Shown here: positions 8,506 through 58,336 of the stretch, piece after piece
How positions within the stretch are numbered: the stretch's first letter is position 1
Layout of the letters: each line of letters opens with the position of its first letter
Source: Patescibacteria group bacterium
Lineage (GTDB): Bacteria > Patescibacteriota > Patescibacteriia > 2-12-FULL-60-25
Direction: 5' to 3'
Length of the DNA: 64,000 nt
Assembly (NCBI GenBank): GCA_031082005.1
Contig: JAVHLR010000001.1
Span: 811,251-875,250 of the forward strand
The notes under the pieces: generated by a model
What the model was told of the DNA's origin: nothing
What the model saw: the letters and a program-made list of their open reading frames with translations, nothing else
The model's database searches: none
Program-made: the position numbers and the translations under genes

Positions 8506-10284
8506 CTAGCCCGTGACCGCCGTCTGCTTGATTCCCTCCGCATCCCTCACATCCACCAGCTTGCACTGCGCTTCACGACGACCGTTCCATTCATTGATGT
8601 CGATTTCGACGACCACATCGAGTTTTTGCCCGAAGGACAGCTCCTCGAGACGCTGCCCGAAATTGAAACCCATGAACTTCGCCCGGCGACCCGCCGCATC
8701 GCGCAGCATGCAACGGACGTGTTTATGCGTCTGCCCCACCAAATCACATGACGCGACTTCCAGATCCCTGATCATGAACAGCGGTTTTCGGTTGCCCTCG
8801 CCGAAAGGCTGCAGCCGCCGTAACGCGTCCGCCAATCCGACATCCACTTGGCCAAGATCCACTTCTGCATCGATATTCATGAACGGCATCAACCCATCGA
8901 TGTCGAGGTTCTCTCGAGCATACACATCCAGTTTATGGATCAAAGTCTCGACTTGCGATTCTGCCCCGAAAGAAAAACCGCATGCCTGGACATGACCTCC
9001 CACGTGGGTGACGAAACCCTCGCCTGCTCGCCTTACGGCTTCAGTGATATCGAAAAATGCGTATGATCTGCCTGATCCGACCCATCGGTCGCCATGCCGT
9101 CCGATGGCGATCGTCGGCTTGCCCGTACGATCAAGGTATTTGCCCGCCACCAACCCGACAAGCGCGGGTTGCCAGGTTTCAGACCAAAAAGACAACAGCG
9201 GAGCTTGCTCGACGGCGGACAATTGGGTTTCCGCCTCGACCAACATGGTCTGCATCAAACGTTGACGGTCACGGTTCTGTTCTTCCAGGCGCCCAGCTAA
9301 TTCCGCCGCAGCCTCATCCGTCTCCGCCAACATCAGATCCAGAGCTAAGGACGCATGGTCCATCCTTCCGGCTGCGTTGATACGCGGCCCCAGCCCGAAT
9401 GCAATCGACTGCGCGTCCAACTCACCGGGCGTCTGTCCGGCAGCGCGGATTAAAGCGCGCAGACCCGGCCGACGCGTCTTGTTCATCACCATCAGGCCGT
9501 ACTTTTCCAGGACGCGATTCTCGCCCAAAAGCGGCACCATGTCAGTCACTGTCGCGATAGCCACCAGATCAAGCAACCACTTATCGAAACCTTCGGGCAG
9601 TGCCATCCCCTTTTCCACAGCCGTCTCATAGACCGCGCTGGCGAACTTCCAAGCGACCCCGACAGCCGCCAAATGCTTGAAAGGATACTCCTCGCCTTCC
9701 AACTTAGGATGCACCAAAATAGCATCAGGCAATGTCTCTCCGAACTGATGGTGATCAAGTACGATGACGTCCATGCCCAAACTCCTGGCCAATGCTATCT
9801 CATCCACGCTGGCGATGCCGCAATCCACCGTAATAATCAAATCCGCTCCTTGTTCAGCCAGCGCCCTGACCGTACCCTCATGCAAACCATATCCCTCTTT
9901 ATCGCGATGCGGAATATATGAGCTTACGTTTGAAACCGGAACAGACGACTGCTTTTCGATCTCGCGCAACGTAGTGATCACGACCGCGCTGCCCGTCACT
10001 CCATCCGCATCATAATCCCCATGGACCACGATCTTTTCCTGATTCTCCAATGCAGAAAAAACCCTCTCGACTGCTGGCTTCATCTGCCTGAAAAGCCACG
10101 GCTTATGTACTCCGTTGTCCCATGACGGTTCCAGAAAATGTTGTGCTTCCTCAATGTTGGAAATACCACGATTCGCCAATAGATATGCCAAAACTGGAGG
10201 CATCCCTTGAGATACCACAAAATCAGTGAGTCGCTCCAACAACTCCCCGTCTGGTTCCTGCGGCGGGTTCCATCGTTTTTTCAT
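8506..10284 (-). CDS. recJ: RecJ single-stranded-DNA-specific exonuclease
   Basis: This 592-residue 5'-3' ssDNA exonuclease acts in recombination and mismatch repair. The DHH phosphoesterase motifs are in order: HGDYDADGVTGSAV, ITVDCGIAS, VIVLDHHQFGETLPDA. The DHHA1 motif THVGGHVQACGFSF follows, and then an OB-fold C-terminus. I choose the ATG at 10284 (MKKRWNPPQEP). The frame is open upstream to a TTG at 10353, but that extension is encoded by the arm of a hairpin repeat and adds an unconserved MNPYTYRF... tail. It is followed by rnhA. Confidence 0.95.
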   Translation of the reverse strand: MKKRWNPPQEPDGELLERLTDFVVSQGMPPVLAYLLANRGISNIEEAQHFLEPSWDNGVHKPWLFRQMKPAVERVFSALENQEKIVVHGDYDADGVTGSAVVITTLREIEKQSSVPVSNVSSYIPHRDKEGYGLHEGTVRALAEQGADLIITVDCGIASVDEIALARSLGMDVIVLDHHQFGETLPDAILVHPKLEGEEYPFKHLAAVGVAWKFASAVYETAVEKGMALPEGFDKWLLDLVAIATVTDMVPLLGENRVLEKYGLMVMNKTRRPGLRALIRAAGQTPGELDAQSIAFGLGPRINAAGRMDHASLALDLMLAETDEAAAELAGRLEEQNRDRQRLMQTMLVEAETQLSAVEQAPLLSFWSETWQPALVGLVAGKYLDRTGKPTIAIGRHGDRWVGSGRSYAFFDITEAVRRAGEGFVTHVGGHVQACGFSFGAESQVETLIHKLDVYARENLDIDGLMPFMNIDAEVDLGQVDVGLADALRRLQPFGEGNRKPLFMIRDLEVASCDLVGQTHKHVRCMLRDAAGRRAKFMGFNFGQRLEELSFGQKLDVVVEIDINEWNGRREAQCKLVDVRDAEGIKQTAVTG

Positions 10285-10330
10285 CCTTTCGATTCTTTCA
10301 TGCGGTCGATAAAAAGACAAAAAAGGGAGA

Positions 10331-10420
10331 AACCTGTAAGTGTACGGATTCAAGCCTGCGGGGCTCGTTTCAGTCTACCTCGAACACATCCTCGGCGATG
10401 AATCCGTACACTTACAGGTT
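10331..10420 (-). repeat. Long-armed hairpin repeat, copy 1 (core inverted)
   Basis: The arms 10331-10352 and 10399-10420 are perfect 22-base reverse complements (AACCTGTAAGTGTACGGATT...). The 46-base loop between them holds the conserved core. Read on the minus strand, the core contains GAGGATGTGTTCGAGGTAGA and ends CCCCGCAG. This is the only copy in the opposite orientation and the only one not touching a gene end. It sits between a terminator-like hairpin of the lipoprotein gene and the start of recJ. One arm could be read as an N-terminal extension of recJ. Confidence 0.9.
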
Positions 10421-10460
10421 CGGAAAGGAAAAAAAAGAAGGGGAACGAAGGATTTACGAC

Positions 10461-10493
10461 AAACCCGCGGCTCAAGTCATGAGCCGCAGGTTT
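10461..10493 (-). terminator. Hairpin after the 10501-11382 lipoprotein gene
   Basis: A 14-base stem (AAACCTGCGGCTCA on the minus strand, 13 of 14 paired) closes a 5-base loop just after the lipoprotein stop at 10501. There is no U-run of four or more, so the terminator call is moderate. Confidence 0.55.
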
Positions 10494-10500
10494 GAGTGGA

Positions 10501-11382
10501 CTACGGGAGAGGTATCCTGCTCGCTTGCCAAGTCCCCAACAAATCAGACGTTCCGTCGTAACCGACGACGCCGTACATGTATGACGAACTAAGCAGTGAT
10601 CCGACGTAACGGAACCCCTGCCGCACAAACTCGACGTGCCTGACGAAAATGTCGCCATCTTGTGCGGTCGACCCGTCAAGCGAAAGATATCGCCCATCCT
10701 GACGAAAACCTACGACATCACAAGCGCTGTCGAAGGTCGTGCCGTCGAAACACCAAGACGCCTCCACATTCACCACGGTCCGAAGAGGCAAAGTGACGCA
10801 CAACGGCTCGAAGAGGTGGCTCGCCGAGTCACGCGGAATCGCGCACGCCGTGACAATCGTCTCCGGCTCGGAGTCGAAAGCATCGGTCGCGAACAGATCC
10901 AGCTGCGCTTGCGGCCGCTGCACCTTGTCGAATCCATGCCCCGACATGAAGTGGAACGTCGCGACGTCCTGGTCAGCGATGCTCCACACGAAATCCGCCG
11001 ACACCTCGTACGACCCCGTGTCGTCGCTGCGGTAGGCGATAGCTTGAACGACGTCACAAGTACGATCTTCAAGCGGGTTCAACGGCACAGCGACTTCGTC
11101 CGGCGAGCTCTCGCATGTCGCGAACATGATATCCGTCGGAATCTCGTCCTGACCATCATCCGTCGTCTGGCCATCCCCTGTATCCAAACTCGGGCGCTTG
11201 ACCGACGAAGCGTAGATGTCTTGACGAGACAGCTGAAAAAACCTAGCTGGAGTTTTTTCCGCCATAGCTTCACCGACGACATCATCCGTCGAATTCCCAG
11301 CCGATTCTTCCGGCTGTTGCAGCAGACAGGCGGAAATGGGGACGGACAAAAACACCACCAAACCGAATAGACGATTTTGCAT
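10501..11382 (-). CDS. Secreted lipoprotein of unknown function
   Basis: The 293-residue product starts at the ATG at 11382, preceded by a good ribosome site (GGGAGAAGG, about 5 bases upstream). MQNRLFGLVVFLSVPISAC is a lipoprotein signal with lipidation at the Cys of SAC. The mature protein has a short acidic Ser/Thr/Asp linker and then a probable beta-rich domain with several Cys residues (TCESS, RTCDVV, TACAIP, PLCVTL, SWCF, SACDVV) that may form disulfides. I recognise no domain family. It is monocistronic, with a terminator-like hairpin behind it. Confidence 0.75.
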   Translation of the reverse strand: MQNRLFGLVVFLSVPISACLLQQPEESAGNSTDDVVGEAMAEKTPARFFQLSRQDIYASSVKRPSLDTGDGQTTDDGQDEIPTDIMFATCESSPDEVAVPLNPLEDRTCDVVQAIAYRSDDTGSYEVSADFVWSIADQDVATFHFMSGHGFDKVQRPQAQLDLFATDAFDSEPETIVTACAIPRDSASHLFEPLCVTLPLRTVVNVEASWCFDGTTFDSACDVVGFRQDGRYLSLDGSTAQDGDIFVRHVEFVRQGFRYVGSLLSSSYMYGVVGYDGTSDLLGTWQASRIPLP

Positions 11383-11486
11383 GACACCTTCTCCCACAAA
11401 AAAAAGAACGAATGCGTTGAATCACGCTTTCGTCCTGCACCTATCTATACCGCTACCCTATCCACTGAAACAGTCAAGTGGATAAG

Positions 11487-11588
11487 TCAAAATGACCCTG
11501 CAAATGGAGCGATCAAAAAAAACACTGTCGCAAAGGCGATGAAACCGATGACTATCTTATTTATGAATTTTCTCTGTTTAGCTTTCAT
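11487..11588 (-). CDS. Possible 33-residue single-helix membrane protein
   Basis: A short frame reads MKAKQRKFINKIV followed by a hydrophobic run (IGFIAFATVFFLIAPFAG) and a TGA stop. The basic N-terminus plus a single hydrophobic helix of about 18 residues is the plan of many small bacterial membrane proteins. No Shine-Dalgarno site is visible and I know no family for it, so it stays tentative. It lies between lepA and the lipoprotein gene, on the same strand as both. Confidence 0.4.
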   Translation of the reverse strand: MKAKQRKFINKIVIGFIAFATVFFLIAPFAGSF

Positions 11589-11610
11589 ATGGATTTAATA
11601 TTTTTCTAGC

Positions 11611-11638
11611 CTGGATTCCCGCCTACGCGGGAATGACG
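11611..11638. repeat. GGATTCCCGC..GCGGGAATGAC palindromic repeat
   Basis: This short palindrome (ATTCCCGC...GCGGGAAT around a CTAC loop) belongs to the widespread CTGGATTCCCGCCTNCGCGGGAATGACG type found between genes in many bacteria. Fuller copies occur at 53738-53802 and 55539-55598. Confidence 0.8.
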
Positions 11639-11647
11639 AATGAAAGT

Positions 11648-11680
11648 ATGTTCGAGGTAAACTAATACGAGCCCTCCCCA
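11648..11680 (+). repeat. Decayed core of the long-armed hairpin repeat
   Basis: TATGTTCGAGGTAAACTAAT followed by ACGAGCCCT matches the conserved core with a few substitutions. No complementary arms flank it. It lies 83 bases to the left of the intact core of copy 2 and in the same orientation. It is probably the remnant of an older insertion. Confidence 0.75.
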
Positions 11681-11696
11681 TTTTTCCTATCCCTCC

Positions 11697-11789
11697 TAGT
11701 GTTTCCAGAATAATTTTTTGTGGCGAGGATGTGTTCGAGGTAGACTGAAACGAGCCCCGCAGCAACAAAAAATTATTCTGGAAACACTA
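11697..11789 (+). repeat. Long-armed hairpin repeat, copy 2 (end of lepA)
   Basis: The arms 11697-11721 and 11765-11789 are perfect 25-base reverse complements. The loop holds the core with GAGGATGTGTTCGAGGTAGA and CCCCGCAG. The right arm ends exactly on the lepA stop codon (11787-11789), so the left arm is an inverted copy of the lepA stop and the following bases. In the lepA mRNA it would form a hairpin starting at the stop codon. Confidence 0.95.
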
Positions 11790-13601
11790 ATCCCCATCCT
11801 CGCGCCTCAAGACTTTTATGAACGTATCCGGCGGTATCTCCACCGAACCAGCGCCCATACTTAGCATGCGCTTCTTACCCTTCTTCTGTTTCTGCAGCAG
11901 TTTCATCTTACGCGTCACATCGCCGCCATACAAGTAGCCAGTCACGTCTTTACGGAAAGCCGAGATACGATCCGCGGCGATTATCTTCGCACCGATGGCG
12001 GCTTGGATCTTGATCACGAACTGCTGACGCGGCAACGTCTCTTTTAAAGTCGCCACGACTTCCCTACCTCGACGATACGCCTCCGACTCATGCAATAGCA
12101 TGGAAAATGCCGGCACCTTCTTATCGGCTACCAGGATATCCAGCAGGACGATTTTCGCCGCACGATAACCGATGAACTCATAGTTCAATGACGCATAGCC
12201 TGATGACGCGCTCTTGAGTTTATCATGGAAATCCACGATGACGGACGAAAGCGGCATGTCAAAATGCAGAACCGTACGCTTCGGATCCAGGTAATCAGTA
12301 GATTTATACATACCGCGACGTTCGGTCACGAGCGCCATGATGTTGCCGATGTAATCCGCGGGACAGACGATATCGACCAAAACCCAAGGCTCACGGACTT
12401 CGCGCAGATGCGACGGATCCGGGAACTCCATGGCCGAGGTCACCACGCTTTCATCGCCACCCGTCGACGTAATCTCGTAGGCCACGCTGGGACTCGTGAT
12501 GACGAGTTCCATATTGTGTTCGCGTCTCAACCGTTCCTGCACGATCTCGAGATGCAACATGCCCAAAAGACCGCAACGGAAGCCATAACCCAAAGCCAAC
12601 GACTGCTCCGGTTCAAAAGCCAACGCCGCATCCGACAACTTCAGCTTCATCATGGCCTCGCGCAACCTCACATACTCATTGCCTTCCTTCGGAAAAATAC
12701 TGGCGTACACCATGGGCCGCACTTCCTTGTAACCCGGCAATGGCTTAGTCTCCGCAGCGTGCTCGAAACTCGCGATAGTATCGCCGACGCGCACCGCCGA
12801 AATGTCCTTCAAGCCCGACACGACATAAGCGATCTCACCTGCTTCGATCGCCTCGGTACTGACATAGTCAGGCTTCAGGAAACCCACATCCAACGCCTGG
12901 CCTTCTGTCGCCGTCGCGATGAACTTCAACTTTTCGTTCTTGGATAGTTTGCCGTCCATCACGCGCACATAAGCCACGACTCCGCGATAGTCGTCGTATT
13001 TGGAATCGAAAATAACGGCGCTAAAAAAAGCCGATCGATTACCTCTCGGATGCGGAACGTCTTTGACGACTCGCTCAAGAATCAGATCCACGCCAGCGCC
13101 AGTCTTACCTGAAGCGCAGATGATCTCTTCGCGCTTACAACCGATCAACTTCATCAGCTCTTCCGCACAACGTTCGACATCAGCCGCCGGCAAATCAATC
13201 TTATTCAAGACCGGAATGATAGTCAGGTCTTGTTCCAACGCCAGATACAGATTTGCGATCGTCTGCGCCTGCACTCCCTGAGTCGCATCGACGAGAAGTA
13301 TCGCGCCTTCGACCGAAGCCAACGAACGAGAGACTTCGTAAGTGAAATCCACATGTCCCGGAGTATCGATGAGGTTAAGTTCGTATTCTTGGCCATCCTT
13401 CGCCTTATATTTCATCCGCGCCGGCTGCAGTTTGATAGTGATACCGCGCTCGCGCTCCAGATCCATTGTATCCAAAAGCTGCTCTTTCATCTTACGTTTA
13501 TCGATCGTCCCCGTAGTTTCCAAAAGCCGATCGGACAGCGTGGACTTGCCGTGATCGATATGCGCAATGATGCAGAAGTTCCTTATTTTCTGTTGCTCCA
13601 T
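11787..13601 (-). CDS. lepA: Elongation factor 4 (LepA)
   Basis: This 604-residue translational GTPase back-translocates or remodels stalled ribosomes. G1 (AHIDHGKST, about 13-21), G2 region (ERERGITI), G3 (DTPGHVDF) and G4 (NKIDLPAAD) are intact. The length and the characteristic C-terminal domain (ending in YGGDVTRKMKLLQKQKKGKK...) separate it from EF-G. It begins at the ATG at 13601, about 50 bases after the FecR-domain gene region on the same strand. Copy 2 of the long-armed repeat starts at its stop codon. Confidence 0.98.
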   Translation of the reverse strand: MEQQKIRNFCIIAHIDHGKSTLSDRLLETTGTIDKRKMKEQLLDTMDLERERGITIKLQPARMKYKAKDGQEYELNLIDTPGHVDFTYEVSRSLASVEGAILLVDATQGVQAQTIANLYLALEQDLTIIPVLNKIDLPAADVERCAEELMKLIGCKREEIICASGKTGAGVDLILERVVKDVPHPRGNRSAFFSAVIFDSKYDDYRGVVAYVRVMDGKLSKNEKLKFIATATEGQALDVGFLKPDYVSTEAIEAGEIAYVVSGLKDISAVRVGDTIASFEHAAETKPLPGYKEVRPMVYASIFPKEGNEYVRLREAMMKLKLSDAALAFEPEQSLALGYGFRCGLLGMLHLEIVQERLRREHNMELVITSPSVAYEITSTGGDESVVTSAMEFPDPSHLREVREPWVLVDIVCPADYIGNIMALVTERRGMYKSTDYLDPKRTVLHFDMPLSSVIVDFHDKLKSASSGYASLNYEFIGYRAAKIVLLDILVADKKVPAFSMLLHESEAYRRGREVVATLKETLPRQQFVIKIQAAIGAKIIAADRISAFRKDVTGYLYGGDVTRKMKLLQKQKKGKKRMLSMGAGSVEIPPDTFIKVLRREDGD

Positions 13602-13653
13602 GTCCCAGGATACTGCCTGAAAAAAGGGTTTTTGGCAATGTCCAAAAGCACGA

Positions 13654-14658
13654 TTACGCTCCTGGACCGATGACTTGCGGTTGGGTGCTGGGTAGAATTT
13701 CCTGCAGCAACGGAGCCCTTTCAGGAACGACGAAAGTCGACGAAGTGTTGATCAACATCTCTCTACGCCTTTGGAGCAGCTCCCTGTAAATCATGAATTC
13801 CTGACGTAGGACAGGTCTGGCCGGCAATATGACGGGTTTCACCGGCCGCTTCAGCTTATCCGACGTCAATTTCGTGATGCCGAACTTGAAACTATCAACC
13901 AACCGCTCGCTCACGCTCAAGCGTCGGATCGTGCTCTTCAGGATACGCGCATCGCGCAACAAAATTCCCTTTGTCGCGATCTTCAAACCCTCACCGGACG
14001 TTATCTTGACCGGTTCCGCATCAGACGCCTCTACACCGGCCAATTCAGCCGTCTCGTTCGAGACTTCGACTTCGTGATCGGCCACCTGGATGTCCACGCC
14101 GTCGTCCTGGACCTCAACGCCAAAAGCCGTTCCGCGCACTGTCGCCACGACGCCGTTCGCCGAGACCGAATAGTATTCATCCTGACCCAGAAGACGTTCA
14201 AAACGCGTCCACACCCGTCCGGCATTCAGCCGCAACTGGATAAAAATATTCCCATCAGCTGCCTCATCCTTCAGCAACACCAAATCCGTCCCTTCATCCA
14301 ATCTGGCCCGTCCGGAATCAGGGTAAATGATGAAAGCCACGCCTCGCCCGACTTGCATCTCATCCCCGTCTACAAGCTCTGTCCCGTCTTTCCCTGCTTG
14401 TTTCGATCCGTCTCGAGTGATGTCGACGCTCGCGTCCACCCCCAACTCAAGATAACCGATGACGGCATCAGCCGAGTATCCCGGTTCGACATTTTCCCCT
14501 CCCGTTTCGTCGGCAGTTCGCGAATCTTCCTGCTGCACGGCGATCTGCTTCTGTGTCTGCGCTGGGTTCTTCACCACCCGCGGCCCAAGCCTAAAACACC
14601 CAGCACCCAACCCGACCAAAGCGACCAACAAAGCAAACGAAAGATATCCTTTTTTCAT
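13654..14658 (-). CDS. FecR-domain lipoprotein
   Basis: The product has 334 residues from the ATG at 14658 (MKKGYLSFALLVALVGLGAGC). A second ATG two codons upstream at 14664 is also possible, with AAAGATG overlapping it. The LGAGC lipobox predicts a lipidated cell-surface protein. Residues about 100-200 form a FecR-type domain (ARLDEGTDLVLL, GRVWTRFERLLGQDEYYSVS, VVATVRGTAFGVEV). Such domains are found in FecR anti-sigma regulators and in surface proteins. No ECF sigma gene or TonB receptor is nearby, so a structural envelope role is more likely. Confidence 0.88.
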   Translation of the reverse strand: MKKGYLSFALLVALVGLGAGCFRLGPRVVKNPAQTQKQIAVQQEDSRTADETGGENVEPGYSADAVIGYLELGVDASVDITRDGSKQAGKDGTELVDGDEMQVGRGVAFIIYPDSGRARLDEGTDLVLLKDEAADGNIFIQLRLNAGRVWTRFERLLGQDEYYSVSANGVVATVRGTAFGVEVQDDGVDIQVADHEVEVSNETAELAGVEASDAEPVKITSGEGLKIATKGILLRDARILKSTIRRLSVSERLVDSFKFGITKLTSDKLKRPVKPVILPARPVLRQEFMIYRELLQRRREMLINTSSTFVVPERAPLLQEILPSTQPQVIGPGA

Positions 14659-14763
14659 AATCATCTTTATTTCTAAACAATACTACCACACCTCGCAGAA
14701 CCCAGCAGCTTTTTCTCTTCCTGATAAACTGACCAAAGCGGCTTGGTGAATTATTATTTAAGC

Positions 14764-14803
14764 CAGGATGTGTTCGAGATATGTTGGACGCGTCCCTCAC
14801 CTC
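14764..14803 (+). repeat. Decayed core of the long-armed hairpin repeat
   Basis: AGGATGTGTTCGAGATATGT followed by ...CGCGTCCCTCA aligns with the 5' two thirds of the conserved core; the 3' part has drifted. It has no matching arms and lies 79 bases left of the intact core of copy 3. The spacing is nearly the same as for the decayed core beside copy 2. Confidence 0.7.
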
Positions 14804-14815
14804 TACTCTCACTCC

Positions 14816-14904
14816 GAGCTGCGGTTGCGTTGTTTTATCAGCGAGGACCTGTTCGAGATATATCAACCGAGCCCCGCAGCGATGAAACAACGCAACCGCA
14901 GCTC
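14816..14904 (+). repeat. Long-armed hairpin repeat, copy 3 (end of murJ)
   Basis: The arms 14816-14839 and 14881-14904 pair over 24 bases with one T-G mispair (14836 with 14884). The core is the GAGGACCTGTTCGAGATA subtype with TATCAACCGAG and CCCCGCAG. The right arm ends inside the murJ stop codon (14903-14905). The left arm is therefore an inverted copy of the murJ 3' end. Confidence 0.95.
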
Positions 14905-16543
14905 ACCCCATCGCCTCCTCCATCCCATCGATCTTAGGTTTCTTGCGCCACAATTTTCTTTTTATCGCATCCCTGAAATCAAGCAGCTCTTTTGATCTCA
15001 AGACCCACGCCACCAACAAAAAAGTACCGCCGCCGGCCAAACACGCCGCTGCCGCCTGTAACGCGACTTGCCAAAAAGTCTGCAAAGGAAAAATCGAACC
15101 CACAAGCTGTCTGACCGGATAACCCACCGCGATTATGCTGGCTGCGGCAGCCATGGATTTCAGGATCGAGATATTCAACGCGTACGTATCGAAAGGGCCA
15201 TATTTTTTCTTGAGAAACGTCCAAAGCAACAGCGCGTTGATATATGAAGCCGCCGCGAAAGCCAAAGCTAATCCGGTTATGCCGAACAGGCCGCGCCACC
15301 AGACGGCCAAAGCCAGATTGCAGGCTTCAGATACGAACGCGATAAAAAGAGGCGTCTTCGTATCTTGCTTCGCGTAAAAAGCGCGGGCGAATAAAGGCAC
15401 CAGGGCTTGCGCGATCAAGGCTGCCGTAAAAGCGCCCATGACGTTCGCCGTGCGGATCGTATTATCCCAATCGAATTCCCCTGCCCCTAGCGCAAGACGG
15501 ATGATTTGGGCGCGCAAAAGGAAAAAAATCGCCATGGACGGTAAGATGAAAAATCCGATTTTGCTCGTAGCCGAAACCAATTCAGCAGCGAAACATCGCT
15601 GGTCATTCCGGCTCGCGGCTCGCGACAGCAAGGGGAATGCTGCCAAGGCGAATGAGATGCCGAAAATCCCCACCGGAAAAGATTGGAGATTATTCGCCAG
15701 ATTAAAGACCGCAACCGAACCCGTCGGCAAAGCCGAAGCTAAAGCCAAAAGCACCACCAGATTGAGCTGCGAAAGGCCAAGCCCCAATGTCCGCGGCAAC
15801 ATCAACTTAAGGATGCGCCTGACTCCCGGCGGTCGGAAAGAAGGCAGCGGCAACTTGCCCAACCCAAGCTTCAGCACCACCGTCGTCTGCGTAGCCAGAT
15901 GCAAAAATGCTCCGATGATCACGCCCCAGGCGACCCCGATTATGCCTAAACGAGGAGCTAAGACCAAAGCACCGAAAATGATGCCGAGATTATAGAAAAC
16001 CGGCGCCAAAGAAAAAGCCATGAAACGTTTCAAGGCCTGAAGTACACCACCCATCACGGCGGAGATCCCGAGCAAGAACGGAGAAAGGAACATGACGCGC
16101 GAAAGCGCAATCGTCTGCTCAAGTTTATCGCCGCTGAAACCCGGCACGGTCCAAGGCACTATCCATTGCGCCGTCAAAGCCAAAACCAGACAGACACCAG
16201 CCATCACCGCTCCGACGATCGACAGAGTCTGCGCCGCCAACTTCCAAGCTTCGTCTTTGCTGCGCGTCTCGAGATATTCGGAAAAAACCGGAATGAAACC
16301 TGCGGACAATGCACCCAGAATAATCAAAGAATAAATCAAGTCCGGTACTCGAAAGGCAGCGTAATATACATCAAGGTCATATCCAGCGCCGAAACTCGAA
16401 GCCAAGACCCTATCGCGCAACACACCGACCAGCCGCGAAGCTACCGAAGCCGCGCCCACGATCAAAGCCGCAGCAGTCAGGCCATTAGCCTCGCCGTGCC
16501 ACAAATTATGCAACTTGTCGTTCAAAACACGAATTAAGTTCAC
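14903..16543 (-). CDS. murJ: MurJ-like lipid II flippase (MVF family)
   Basis: This integral membrane protein has about 14 hydrophobic segments. It begins GLTAAALIVGAASVASRLVGVLRDRVLASSFGAG, the typical first helix and loop of MurJ, with its conserved basic residues. MurJ flips lipid II outwards for peptidoglycan synthesis. No ATG is available at the N-terminus. I chose the GTG at 16543 (546 residues); a TTG at 16594 would add 17 residues. Neither has a Shine-Dalgarno site. The last bases of the gene are part of copy 3 of the long-armed repeat. Confidence 0.93.
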   Translation of the reverse strand: MNLIRVLNDKLHNLWHGEANGLTAAALIVGAASVASRLVGVLRDRVLASSFGAGYDLDVYYAAFRVPDLIYSLIILGALSAGFIPVFSEYLETRSKDEAWKLAAQTLSIVGAVMAGVCLVLALTAQWIVPWTVPGFSGDKLEQTIALSRVMFLSPFLLGISAVMGGVLQALKRFMAFSLAPVFYNLGIIFGALVLAPRLGIIGVAWGVIIGAFLHLATQTTVVLKLGLGKLPLPSFRPPGVRRILKLMLPRTLGLGLSQLNLVVLLALASALPTGSVAVFNLANNLQSFPVGIFGISFALAAFPLLSRAASRNDQRCFAAELVSATSKIGFFILPSMAIFFLLRAQIIRLALGAGEFDWDNTIRTANVMGAFTAALIAQALVPLFARAFYAKQDTKTPLFIAFVSEACNLALAVWWRGLFGITGLALAFAAASYINALLLWTFLKKKYGPFDTYALNISILKSMAAAASIIAVGYPVRQLVGSIFPLQTFWQVALQAAAACLAGGGTFLLVAWVLRSKELLDFRDAIKRKLWRKKPKIDGMEEAMG

Positions 16544-16631
16544 GCCCGCAATTATGCCGAACAGACACGCTTTAGTCGAGACTGAAAAAAACAATATTCA
16601 AATACATCCAATCTCCCCTTTTCCTCACCAC

Positions 16632-16722
16632 AGAGCAGGAAAAGTAATAATACCCTCCGAGGATGTGTTCGAGGTAGACTGAAACGAGCCCCGCAGGAGG
16701 GTATTATTGCTTTTCCTGCTCT
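16632..16722 (+). repeat. Long-armed hairpin repeat, copy 4 (overlaps the end of a glycosyltransferase gene)
   Basis: The arms 16632-16658 and 16696-16722 pair over 27 bases with one T-G mispair (16645 with 16709). The 37-base loop is the conserved core (GAGGATGTGTTCGAGGTAGA, CCCCGCA). The right arm reaches 16 bases into the coding sequence beyond the stop codon (16704-16706), covering the codons for EQEKQ. The left arm is an inverted copy of these codons in non-coding DNA, which indicates the direction of copying. Confidence 0.95.
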
Positions 16723-17429
16723 CCCCCCCCGCCCATTTCGTAAGCGAACAACTCTTTCTTGATCTGCCCTATCGTCATGATGTGGAGTTCTGCGAAAAGA
16801 TATTTTATCGCGAGGACGAATCTGCCGTCTTTCTCCAGACGCCTGACGGAAACCGATATCGGATGTGATTTCAACAAACCGAATTTATGTCCCAACTTTT
16901 TCGCACGCTGCACATAATCATGGTCTTCGGCCAGCACGACTTCCTCATCAAATCCTTTTATGCCTTCGTGCGCATGGCGTCTGACCAAAATACAAAAACC
17001 CGGAGCATGAGGTTTTATCTTCTCCGTCGCAACCGCATAGGCGTTATAGATCTCATGCATCGCCTTATCCACCGGTTTGCGCGACAATGGCCTGACTTTA
17101 CAGCTCGCTACGTCCAGTCCCTTCTTATCCATCTCCGCCACGCAGTCACCCAAAAAATGACTTGACGGCATCTGCACATCCGCATCAAAAAAAACCAAAA
17201 TCTCCCCTTGAGCGGCGATTGCACCGCGGTTTCGCCCTGGTCCAGGCATTCCGCCCTCGACGACCTTTGCCCCGAATTCCTGCGCCACCTCCGCAGTCTT
17301 ATCCGTCGAATGGGCATCGGCGACAATCACTTCATAATCCTTGTATGATTGGGCTTTGATGGTCTCGAACAATTTTGGCAGCATCTTTTCTTCGTTCTTG
17401 GTCGGTATGATGATCGATATGCGAGGCAT
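16704..17429 (-). CDS. Family 2 glycosyltransferase
   Basis: This 241-residue GT-A enzyme starts at the ATG at 17429 (MPRISIIIPTKNEEKMLPK). The reading frame is open further upstream but would overlap the SpoU gene. The nucleotide-sugar site is shown by ADAHSTDKT and by the DXD-type VFFDADVQMP; a later acidic pair AEDHDYVQRAK may hold the catalytic base. A hydrophobic stretch near the C-terminus may attach it to the membrane. Such stand-alone GT2 proteins typically act on lipid carriers, but the acceptor is unknown. Its last codons are part of copy 4 of the long-armed repeat. Confidence 0.92.
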   Translation of the reverse strand: MPRISIIIPTKNEEKMLPKLFETIKAQSYKDYEVIVADAHSTDKTAEVAQEFGAKVVEGGMPGPGRNRGAIAAQGEILVFFDADVQMPSSHFLGDCVAEMDKKGLDVASCKVRPLSRKPVDKAMHEIYNAYAVATEKIKPHAPGFCILVRRHAHEGIKGFDEEVVLAEDHDYVQRAKKLGHKFGLLKSHPISVSVRRLEKDGRFVLAIKYLFAELHIMTIGQIKKELFAYEMGGGGEQEKQ

Positions 17430-17461
17430 AAAATTTCGTAGGGTCATGTCTGACCGCGCAC

Positions 17462-17914
17462 CTACGATACATTCAAAATCCAATAACATGCAATCCCGGC
17501 CGCCACGGCCACGTTCATCGACTCTTTTCTGCCGCGCTGGCGCATAAAGACCAAATCATCGCACAACTCGCGCAATGAAGGCGGGATACCGTCCACTTCG
17601 TTGCCCAACAGCAACGCCGTTTTATCGGTCGGCCGATACGCAGCGAGTTCGGTCGCCCGCTCATCCAGCTCCAGACCGACTATCCTGAAACCCAGAACGC
17701 GTAAGCCCTTGATGACCCCTACGACATCAGTCACCTGCTCACAAACCACGCTATCCTCTGCGCCTAACGCAGTCTTTGCGACACGCGGATGCGAAGGTGC
17801 CGGAGAATAACCCGTAACCCACAGCTTTTCTACCCCAAGCGAATCACAAGTACGCAACAACGACCCGATATTCTGGGCCGAACGGATGTCATGCGCGATG
17901 AGATGAAGAATCAT
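17462..17914 (-). CDS. SpoU/TrmH-family RNA 2'-O-methyltransferase
   Basis: This 150-residue protein is a minimal SPOUT domain without the RNA-binding extension of TrmH or RlmB. The three SpoU motifs are present: HDIRSAQNIGSLLRTCDSLG, LLLGNEVDGIP and RGRKESMNVAVAAGIACY. It binds SAM in the trefoil knot and methylates a ribose in tRNA or rRNA; the target cannot be told. I start at the ATG at 17914 (MILHLIAHDIRS). The stop lies 32 bases before the glycosyltransferase start. Confidence 0.93.
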   Translation of the reverse strand: MILHLIAHDIRSAQNIGSLLRTCDSLGVEKLWVTGYSPAPSHPRVAKTALGAEDSVVCEQVTDVVGVIKGLRVLGFRIVGLELDERATELAAYRPTDKTALLLGNEVDGIPPSLRELCDDLVFMRQRGRKESMNVAVAAGIACYWILNVS

Positions 17915-53246: not shown

Positions 53247-54385
53247 GCCTGTAAGATTTCTTTCACGGCCGCATCACGTTCCAGATCCGTCTCCGGGGCT
53301 GCCAGCGCTTCGCGCACAGCTCTGACCAAATCATCGACCGAACCAGGCTTAAAAAGCCGACCAACTCGGCCTAAAGTTTCGCTTACTCCGCCGACGTCTG
53401 AAGCTACAACATTGCATCCGCTAGACAACGCTTCGAGGATGACCGTGGGTTGATTTTCCATGACCAAGCTCGGCACGACAACGACGCCGCTACGCGACAT
53501 CTCTCTGGCGACATCTTGCGGCGCTAGATTCCCCTTCACTTCGATTTTCGTGTCACCGATACTTTCTATCGCACGTCGCATCCTCCCATCTCCCACAAAA
53601 ACCAAACGCTCCACAGAATCACGAATGATGCGCCAACCTTCCAACAACAGACCCACACCCTTATCCGCATCCAGCCGACCGACAAAGAGAATTTGTTTTC
53701 TATCGCGGCCTCCTTCTGTCATTCTAAAATCTTCTTCGTCATTCCCGTGCAGACGGGAATCCAGGCCCTGCACTGCTGGATCCCCGCCTTCGCGAGGATG
53801 ACAGAAAAAACTAATTGGGTTCGGAATCACTTCCTGCCTCGAATCAACAAAAAAACCTCGCGCTACGTGCTGTCCCAAAAGCCATTTCGTCGGCGATATG
53901 ACCACGTCAGGATTTCCCAAAGCCTTTTTCCTCAATCCCGCCCAACCCCGACGCCACAGACTTCTCGACAGACCAAAAGATTCGCCGTAAATAATCTGTC
54001 CCGATGGCTCAAACAACTGAACATCGTGCAAAAAATGGGCCCACCTGACGTGTCGTCCCGAATGCAGCGCAGCGAAATCGAGGGACCTTTTTATTTTCCA
54101 CGCCGTCCCCATCCCACAACCCGTCAGATTATGGCTAATCACGACATCCGGCTTCCAAGTGACTATCTCATCGACAATCACTTTACGCGGCATCAGATCC
54201 CGCAGGTGAAAACTCAAACGCCCAAGCACCGACTTTCTCAAGAGTGTCTTAAAATCATCGCTCGGTCCCCAGACTTTTATCTCATGTCCGCGTTCTCCCA
54301 AAAAATCCGCATACGTCGCGGCGATGCGTCCGGCTCCGCCCTTACTCTCGGGTGGATAGTCGTTCGTGATGATGGCGATTCTCAT
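53189..54385 (-). CDS. GT4-family glycosyltransferase carrying two repeat-derived insertions
   Basis: This 398-residue GT-B enzyme starts MRIAIITNDYPPESKGGAGR. The C-terminal domain holds ILFVGRLDADKGVGLLLEGW and the donor-binding VPSLVMENQPTVILEALSSG. Two stretches come from palindromic repeats: about residues 96-112 (KRSLDFAALHSGRHVRW) and about 193-220 (HPREGGDPAVQGLDSRLHGN). Both keep the frame. The second lies in the linker between the two Rossmann domains, where it may be tolerated. The start overlaps the next GT4 gene by 4 bases. Confidence 0.92.
   Translation of the reverse strand: MRIAIITNDYPPESKGGAGRIAATYADFLGERGHEIKVWGPSDDFKTLLRKSVLGRLSFHLRDLMPRKVIVDEIVTWKPDVVISHNLTGCGMGTAWKIKRSLDFAALHSGRHVRWAHFLHDVQLFEPSGQIIYGESFGLSRSLWRRGWAGLRKKALGNPDVVISPTKWLLGQHVARGFFVDSRQEVIPNPISFFCHPREGGDPAVQGLDSRLHGNDEEDFRMTEGGRDRKQILFVGRLDADKGVGLLLEGWRIIRDSVERLVFVGDGRMRRAIESIGDTKIEVKGNLAPQDVAREMSRSGVVVVPSLVMENQPTVILEALSSGCNVVASDVGGVSETLGRVGRLFKPGSVDDLVRAVREALAAPETDLERDAAVKEILQAHEPSVCGAALEGLLKSNL
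53738..53802. repeat. GTCATTCCCG...GGATGAC repeat inside a glycosyltransferase gene
   Basis: A full copy of about 65 bases: GTCATTCCCGTGCAGACGGG, then AATCCAG, a spacer, and GGATCCCCGCCTTCGCGAGG ending ATGAC. It is nearly identical in its conserved parts to the intergenic copy at 55539-55598. Here it is translated in frame. Confidence 0.92.
54052..54092. repeat. Second GTCNTCCCG-type repeat in the same gene
   Basis: GTCGTCCCGAATGCAGCGCA followed by GCGAAATCGAGGGACCTTTT is the familiar GTCATCCCGAATGCAGCGCA...GAGGGATCT half-element. It is translated in frame as RSLDFAALHSGR. Confidence 0.8.
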
Positions 54386-55491: not shown

Positions 55492-55538
55492 ACTTATTCT
55501 TCTGATTTCTTCTCAAGCAATACCACACTTCAACCTTC

Positions 55539-55598
55539 GTCATTCCCGTGCAGACGGGAATCCAGAAGGGCCTGGTTCCCCGCCTTCGCGAGGATGAC
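55539..55598. repeat. Intergenic GTCATTCCCG...GGATGAC repeat
   Basis: GTCATTCCCGTGCAGACGGG with AATCCAGAAG, then CCCCGCCTTCGCGAGGATGAC-type end. It lies between two glycosyltransferase genes. Confidence 0.92.
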
Positions 55599-55627
55599 AG
55601 AAAAACACAAAAACGACGAATCTCGAA

Positions 55628-58243: not shown

Positions 58244-58336
58244 AAACCACTTAGTACAAAAAATATCGCGTGAGGACCTGTTCGAGATAGACTGAAACGA
58301 GCCCCGCAGCGCGATATTTTTTGTACTAAGTGGTTT
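58244..58336 (+). repeat. Long-armed hairpin repeat, copy 5 (end of an epimerase gene)
   Basis: The arms 58244-58270 and 58310-58336 are perfect 27-base reverse complements. The 39-base loop is the GAGGACCTGTTCGAGATAGA subtype of the core, ending CCCCGCAG. The right arm stops 1 base before the stop codon of the epimerase (58338-58340). Confidence 0.95.

Follow-up and report, generated by a model that had tools for sequence, protein, structure and literature searches.

How did the last codons of a gene come to be repeated, in inverted form, just outside that gene? The window (by which we mean the whole 64,000-nt stretch of DNA analysed here) lies on the 1.24-Mb main contig of a 1.31-Mb Uhrbacteria genome, G000, and at 16632-16722 contains a palindrome, copy 4, made up of two 27-nt arms (16632-16658 and 16696-16722) that are complementary at 26 of 27 positions and have 37 nt between them, the sole mismatch being at 16645, where the left arm has T. 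Within the right arm are the stop codon (TAA in the gene sense) and the EQEKQ codons of a glycosyltransferase gene located at 16704-17489 on the minus strand. Both the near-perfect palindrome and its overlap with the gene end had been described in an earlier note made from the letters of this DNA, and both descriptions hold. Folding of the single strand yielded z = -8.1 (minus) and -9.6 (plus) relative to shuffles. A search for palindromes scoring at least 17, with 25-80 nt in the loop, gave 30 for the main contig but 0, 0, 0 and 0 for four Markov-1 controls, indicating that the copy 4 palindrome is not due to chance. The features at the locus are as follows:

16606-16631, plus strand: tract rich in pyrimidines, beyond the left arm of copy 4
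16632-16658, plus strand: left arm of copy 4, the putative inverted copy, complementary to 16696-16722 and homologous to an orphan left arm in the congener G007
16659-16695, plus strand: type A core of copy 4, GAGGATGTGTTCGAGGTAGACTGAAACGAGCCCCGCA, identified by its recurring 30-nt block and by the profile census
16696-16722, minus strand: right arm of copy 4, putatively native host DNA, with the EQEKQ codons, the stop codon and the nucleotides up to the core
16704-17489, minus strand: glycosyltransferase gene, with its 3′ end within the right arm and an 86% identical ortholog in G007 (L026)
16723-16731, plus strand: C-tract beyond the right arm (read as Gly codons in the gene sense), within the position-fixed pyrimidine enrichment at +27 to +37 of type A elements

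Copy 4 is one member of a dispersed hairpin family, in which cores are common to the copies and arms are specific to each copy. Nearly all of the long-stem, long-loop hairpins recovered from the G000 main contig by an unbiased hairpin search carry one of two cores, and a profile search located 38 cores in this contig and another 27 in G007, whose syntenic contig measures 1.52 Mb. The type A core can be written as GAGGA(YN)TGTTCGAG-RTAGACTGAAA-CGAGCCCCGCAG, and the type B core as GAGGACTGTYTGAG-(variable insert, often self-complementary)-CGAGTTCCGCAG. With up to three mismatches allowed, the 30-nt type A block occurs at 18 places in G000 and at 7 in G007, and among 41 genomes of the family type A matches are limited to these two, i.e. 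to one genus. Type B matches are found in 22 of the 381 genomes of the class, and lie within variable arms at most of the loci read. A plasmid search with the type B core (E ≤ 1) yielded three short matches, two of which were read, and both of these are within hairpin-forming sequence. The central part of the core, TGTTTGAGCGNAGCGAGTTC, is located inside hairpin-forming sequence with differing arms on a Variovorax plasmid, a Butyrivibrio plasmid and several viral contigs (L239, 541-660; L240, 550-705; L247; L253; L255). A literature search for Uhrbacteria palindromes or for the core sequence found nothing relevant, and a scan of window positions 10000-17500 against Rfam 15 gave no RNA family above its gathering score, all matches being weaker than that. 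Two type A cores of G007 (contig C1, near 290500 and 575965) are broken up by a small hairpin of a second kind, GCCCCGCCGCTCGCGAGC(A/G)GCGGGGTGA. Other copies and remnants in the window are:

10331-10420, minus strand: element copy in the minority orientation, also inverted at the orthologous G007 site (573500)
11649-11674, plus strand: remnant core distal to the intact lepA-end element, detected by nhmmer
11697-11789, plus strand: type A element at the lepA end, with the stop codon in an arm
14765-14785, plus strand: remnant core distal to the intact murJ-end element, detected by nhmmer
14816-14904, plus strand: type A element at the murJ end
58244-58336, plus strand: type A element with 27/27 arms

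Arm length is near-constant across copies (22-29 bp), the outer ends being on average 26.9 and 25.1 nt from the core (s.d. 2.5), and the arm sequence is specific to each copy. The inner ~9 nt, however, are partly common to the arms of many copies (TTCTTAACC / GGTAAGAA and similar), so that, strictly speaking, only the outer arm is specified locally; the exception is a class of elements, copy 4 among them, that are palindromic right up to the core. The elements are flanked at fixed distances by a pyrimidine tract, beyond the left arm, and by a C-tract, beyond the right arm. The left tract (-54 to -28) was seen in 25 of 34 elements as compared with 2.8% of random intergenic windows, and it is not a property of gene ends that have no element. 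In BLAST searches, the arms matched almost exclusively their orthologs or array neighbours, and for this reason we rejected the idea that arms may serve as guides to other loci. A 26-nt near-copy (96%) of the left arm of element 1126894 is present about 250 nt away from it (G000 contig C3, 1126643-1126668).

The cores are oriented with respect to the chromosome. Relative to the C-rich strand, 37 of 38 in G000 and 25 of 27 in G007 (62/65 together) point in the same direction, and most are located in the half of the chromosome with strong GC skew. Since the flanking genes are on either strand and include divergent pairs, transcription does not explain this orientation. One exception is shared: the sole inverted copy in G000 (821606; 10331-10420 in the window) has an orthologous counterpart in G007 (573500), which is likewise inverted, and damaged. 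In both genomes, roughly one half of the chromosome has a steep cumulative GC skew and the other half a flat one (the stretches noted being 640k-1241k of contig C3 in G000 and 60k-740k of contig C1 in G007), and the flat-skew half also displays a weaker gene strand bias.

Which of the two arms is the copy? The earlier note had proposed that the left one was copied from the right, and this is supported by gene-end overlaps, by the atpD and gpmI loci and by strand composition: the left arm, distal to CCCCGCAG, behaves as an inverted copy, and the gene-side right arm as native DNA. Overlap with the 3′ end of a gene supported by orthologs, amounting to 1-20 nt, was seen for the right arm in nine elements of G000 and G007 and for the left arm in none; in the same survey, one further element was found entirely within an ORF. 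The atpD end is occupied by a type B core in G000 and by a type A core in G007. Read in the gene sense, G000 has GAC GTA GCT GCA TGA TATTATTCG..., the type B core, and then CGAATAACATCATGCAGCTACG, and G007 has GAC GTG TCA GCG TAA AAATTTTATGCG, the type A core, and then CGCATAAAATATTTACTCTGACAC. The right arms encode the C-termini VAA* and VSA*, respectively, and each left arm complements the codons of its own genome. The two proteins end in GIEDVAA and GIEDVSA, and AtpD of most family genomes aligns up to query residue 455-457, which together indicate that the atpD gene end is native. In G006, a type B core lies about 15 nt from the AtpD stop, as judged by match positions only. At gpmI, the arm takes in the L-I-stop of a tail that G007 shares in identical form, and the synonymous codons mirrored in the left arm are those of G000 itself. 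Finally, the outer arm read in the right-arm, leading-strand sense has G/(G+C) of 0.66, as compared with 0.56 for the element-free leading strand, and G outnumbers C in 36 of 39 elements; the left arm thus runs against the strand skew, as would be expected of an inverted copy, although part of the skew, namely the G excess over 0.56, may reflect target preference.

The single mismatch in copy 4 is not informative in the same way. The earlier note had set T16645 against an expected C, an expectation that comparison with G007 does not support: the orphan left arm at its orthologous copy 4 site, AGAACAGGAAAAGTAAAAATACCCTCC, also has T at the equivalent position. Being common to both left arms, this T predates the split between the two genomes, and the mismatch gives no direction. 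With T at that position the glycosyltransferase would end one codon earlier; the comparison would fit either a change in the G000 gene arm (TAA to CAA, making the protein one codon longer) or a left-arm change that preceded the split. We rejected T16645 as proof of a gene-arm mutation, since a left-arm change before the split is equally parsimonious.

Orthologous sites provide a view of how the arms change. At three sites with clearly homologous arms in G000 and G007, 71 aligned arm columns comprise 55 unchanged, 6 with simultaneous changes in both arms (T/C, G/C, C/T, C/A, C/G, G/A) and 10 with uncompensated changes. The C/A and C/G double changes could not have passed through a G-U pair, and the frequency of uncompensated changes makes strong selection for pairing doubtful; recopying of one arm from the other would explain both kinds of change. 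Homologous arms are 77% identical between the two genomes, as compared with 46% at fourfold sites, which suggests either constraint or recency. At other shared gene ends (637502/754083, 948426/436962 and 1043846/326121) the arms bear no relation to each other and the cores can be of different types, which is what turnover in one location would be expected to give.

Occupancy of particular gene ends is itself shared, those of the glycosyltransferase, murJ and atpD carrying elements in G000, G007 and G006. At the copy 4 site, the gene end of G007 carries a type B palindrome, accompanied by an orphan type A core that retains its left arm, and in G006 (L031), too, a type B palindrome lies on that genome's own gene end. 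Of 11 small arrays, 10 have an intact copy nearest the gene, accompanied by distal copies that are decayed or have no right arm, a pattern suggesting that new copies arise beside the gene end. We rejected the notion that orphan left arms are fossils of the present gene end: the resemblance is weak in three arrays (p ~0.03-0.13, with 0.03 at the glycosyltransferase end) and does not exceed random in most of the others. The G007 sites orthologous to elements 1145110, 803330 and 1211801 measure 11-24 nt, as opposed to 154-247 nt in G000, and neither arm can be recognised in them. At the G007 site of element 1070772, both arms are present without the full core, but GAGGATGTGT of the core is retained, and the core was probably lost there rather than originally absent.

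The explanation that we tentatively favour, giving it almost an even chance of being correct, is that the core induces the leading strand to fold back and switch template, so that an inverted copy of the flank is written. The inherited part would be the core of ~37-50 nt, with the arms built locally. Once synthesis has passed through the core, the nascent 3′ end would fold back on it and take the just-synthesised flank as template for ~25 nt; copying would halt near the G-tract, and the nascent end would then return to its own template, so that the leading strand would run from the host flank (the right arm) through the core to the inverted copy (the left arm). If still paired to the parent strand, the G-tract at the outer end may set the length of the copy, and repeated switching could re-copy an existing arm, so that both arms change together. 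The core may arrive at a new site by recombination between cores or by single-strand insertion at the fork, which are candidate routes only. A fold-back of this kind predicts exactly the observed order, strand preference and perfect stems. As in template switching, the hairpins consist of a near-perfect reverse-complement copy beside its source and show simultaneous compensatory changes (the six at the three orthologous sites, alongside ten uncompensated). Template switching by fold-back, which makes and repairs hairpins and involves priming in the hairpin loop, is described in PMC8794818, together with a leading-strand preference in E. coli.

Several observations count against fold-back template switching. 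It predicts a native right arm at the G007 empty sites, unless this was deleted or has diverged, and its absence from the three sites is the main evidence on the opposing side, although weak in view of saturation (46% identity at fourfold sites) and indels. Orthologous arms are also better conserved than fourfold sites, the left pyrimidine tract is not accounted for, and the inner ~9 nt common to many arms imply that not all of each arm is local. The explanation is drawn from patterns in sequences, no insertion or switching event having been seen directly.

The frequent position of copies directly after stop codons, the occupancy of the same three gene ends in three genomes and the better conservation of orthologous arms than of fourfold sites would all suit a functional 3′-end structure, either terminator-like and bidirectional or an mRNA-end hairpin with a protein-binding internal loop, which is inherited vertically and in which stems vary while pairing is selected. 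We regard this as fairly unlikely, because orientation is tied to the chromosome strand even at opposed or divergent genes, core type switches at one and the same gene end, and the arms are broken in about nine of 54 elements. Moreover, the gene-sense sequence downstream of copy 4, GTGGTGAGGAAAAGGGG, has no T-run, and arm mismatches (16 G-T, 9 A-C and 11 other on the plus strand) show no excess of the class that would form G-U in gene-sense RNA. Stop codons adjoining the elements could also be taken to mean that an mRNA 3′ end was retrotransposed to yield the inverted arm, an alternative offered by the earlier note. It does not survive well and is now very improbable: a search for reverse transcriptase (PF00078) found none in G000, two in G007 and one in G008, and orientation follows the chromosome strand, not the direction of the gene.

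The strand bias, together with the hairpin form, would suit a miniature single-strand transposon of the IS200/IS605 or REP/RAYT-like kind, entering the lagging-strand template and bringing its own arms; IS608 and ISDra2 are reported to target the lagging-strand template (PMC6006769). A search for the Y1 transposase domain (PF01797) yielded matches in G006 and G007 only, and none in G000, which is 100% complete. No core lies within the Y1 loci examined or near them, and these loci were rejected as mobilisers of the cores. The arms are specific to each copy and hence did not travel, and we consider such a transposon distinctly unlikely. Copy-specific arms would be accounted for at once if the core had entered pre-existing perfect palindromes such as terminators, but palindromes with 24-27-bp arms are very few without a core and number dozens with one, and the GAGGATGTGT remnant at the G007 site of 1070772 points to core loss; this reading is close to refuted.

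If fold-back template switching is the correct explanation, the elements would be natural, repeated records of this process in a bacterium: its polarity, the length of its product and the sequence that served as source could all be read off the genome. They would also show a one-step origin of long perfect hairpins and the reason why both arms change together. A repeat could then spread with its stem rewritten each time, and would thereby stay hidden from ordinary repeat annotation. It is possible, if on balance doubtful, that the core is a selfish loop: an enzyme-less sequence that spreads while the replication fork writes an inverted copy of the adjacent host DNA, fitting every copy with a custom stem. 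Given the related core (TGTTTGAGCGNAGCGAGTTC, with variable arms) of Variovorax, Butyrivibrio and some viral contigs, such selfish loops would form a class extending across phyla.

Comparison with known systems brings out what is particular to these hairpins. Intrinsic terminators likewise form a hairpin straight after the stop codon, but the elements here have a conserved loop of 37-50 nt, a stem of 22-29 bp and an orientation independent of transcription, and the short GC-rich hairpin followed by a T-run is absent at copy 4. A retroelement would have a reverse transcriptase available, and the PF00078 search found none in G000. Integron attC sites have conserved outer R boxes and an integrase; the outer arm ends here are not conserved. 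REP sequences with RAYT/TnpA_REP (PMC2817692, PMC3733652, PMC8266576) are also short palindromic interspersed repeats with links to single-stranded DNA; there, the stem is the repeated part, whereas here the loop is repeated, the stem is unique and differs in every copy, and G000 has no cognate Y1 transposase. A separate REP-like repeat family, CTGGATTCCCGCC...GGGAATGACGAA, is present at 11609-11640, 53734-53809 and 55535-55605 of the window. The repetitive hairpin elements (RHE) of sponge mitochondria (PMC2800124) resemble our elements as dispersed intergenic hairpin repeats in small genomes; ours differ in being bacterial and in having a shared loop, copy-specific stems and chromosome-strand polarity. 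There are also parallels in template switching and quasipalindrome correction (PMC8794818, PMC7202029), where single events also give reverse-complement copies and perfect stems, both arms may change simultaneously, and a leading-strand preference has been reported in E. coli. Template-switch mutations have been described as sporadic, whereas the elements reported here combine a core recurring at dozens of places with a near-constant product length.
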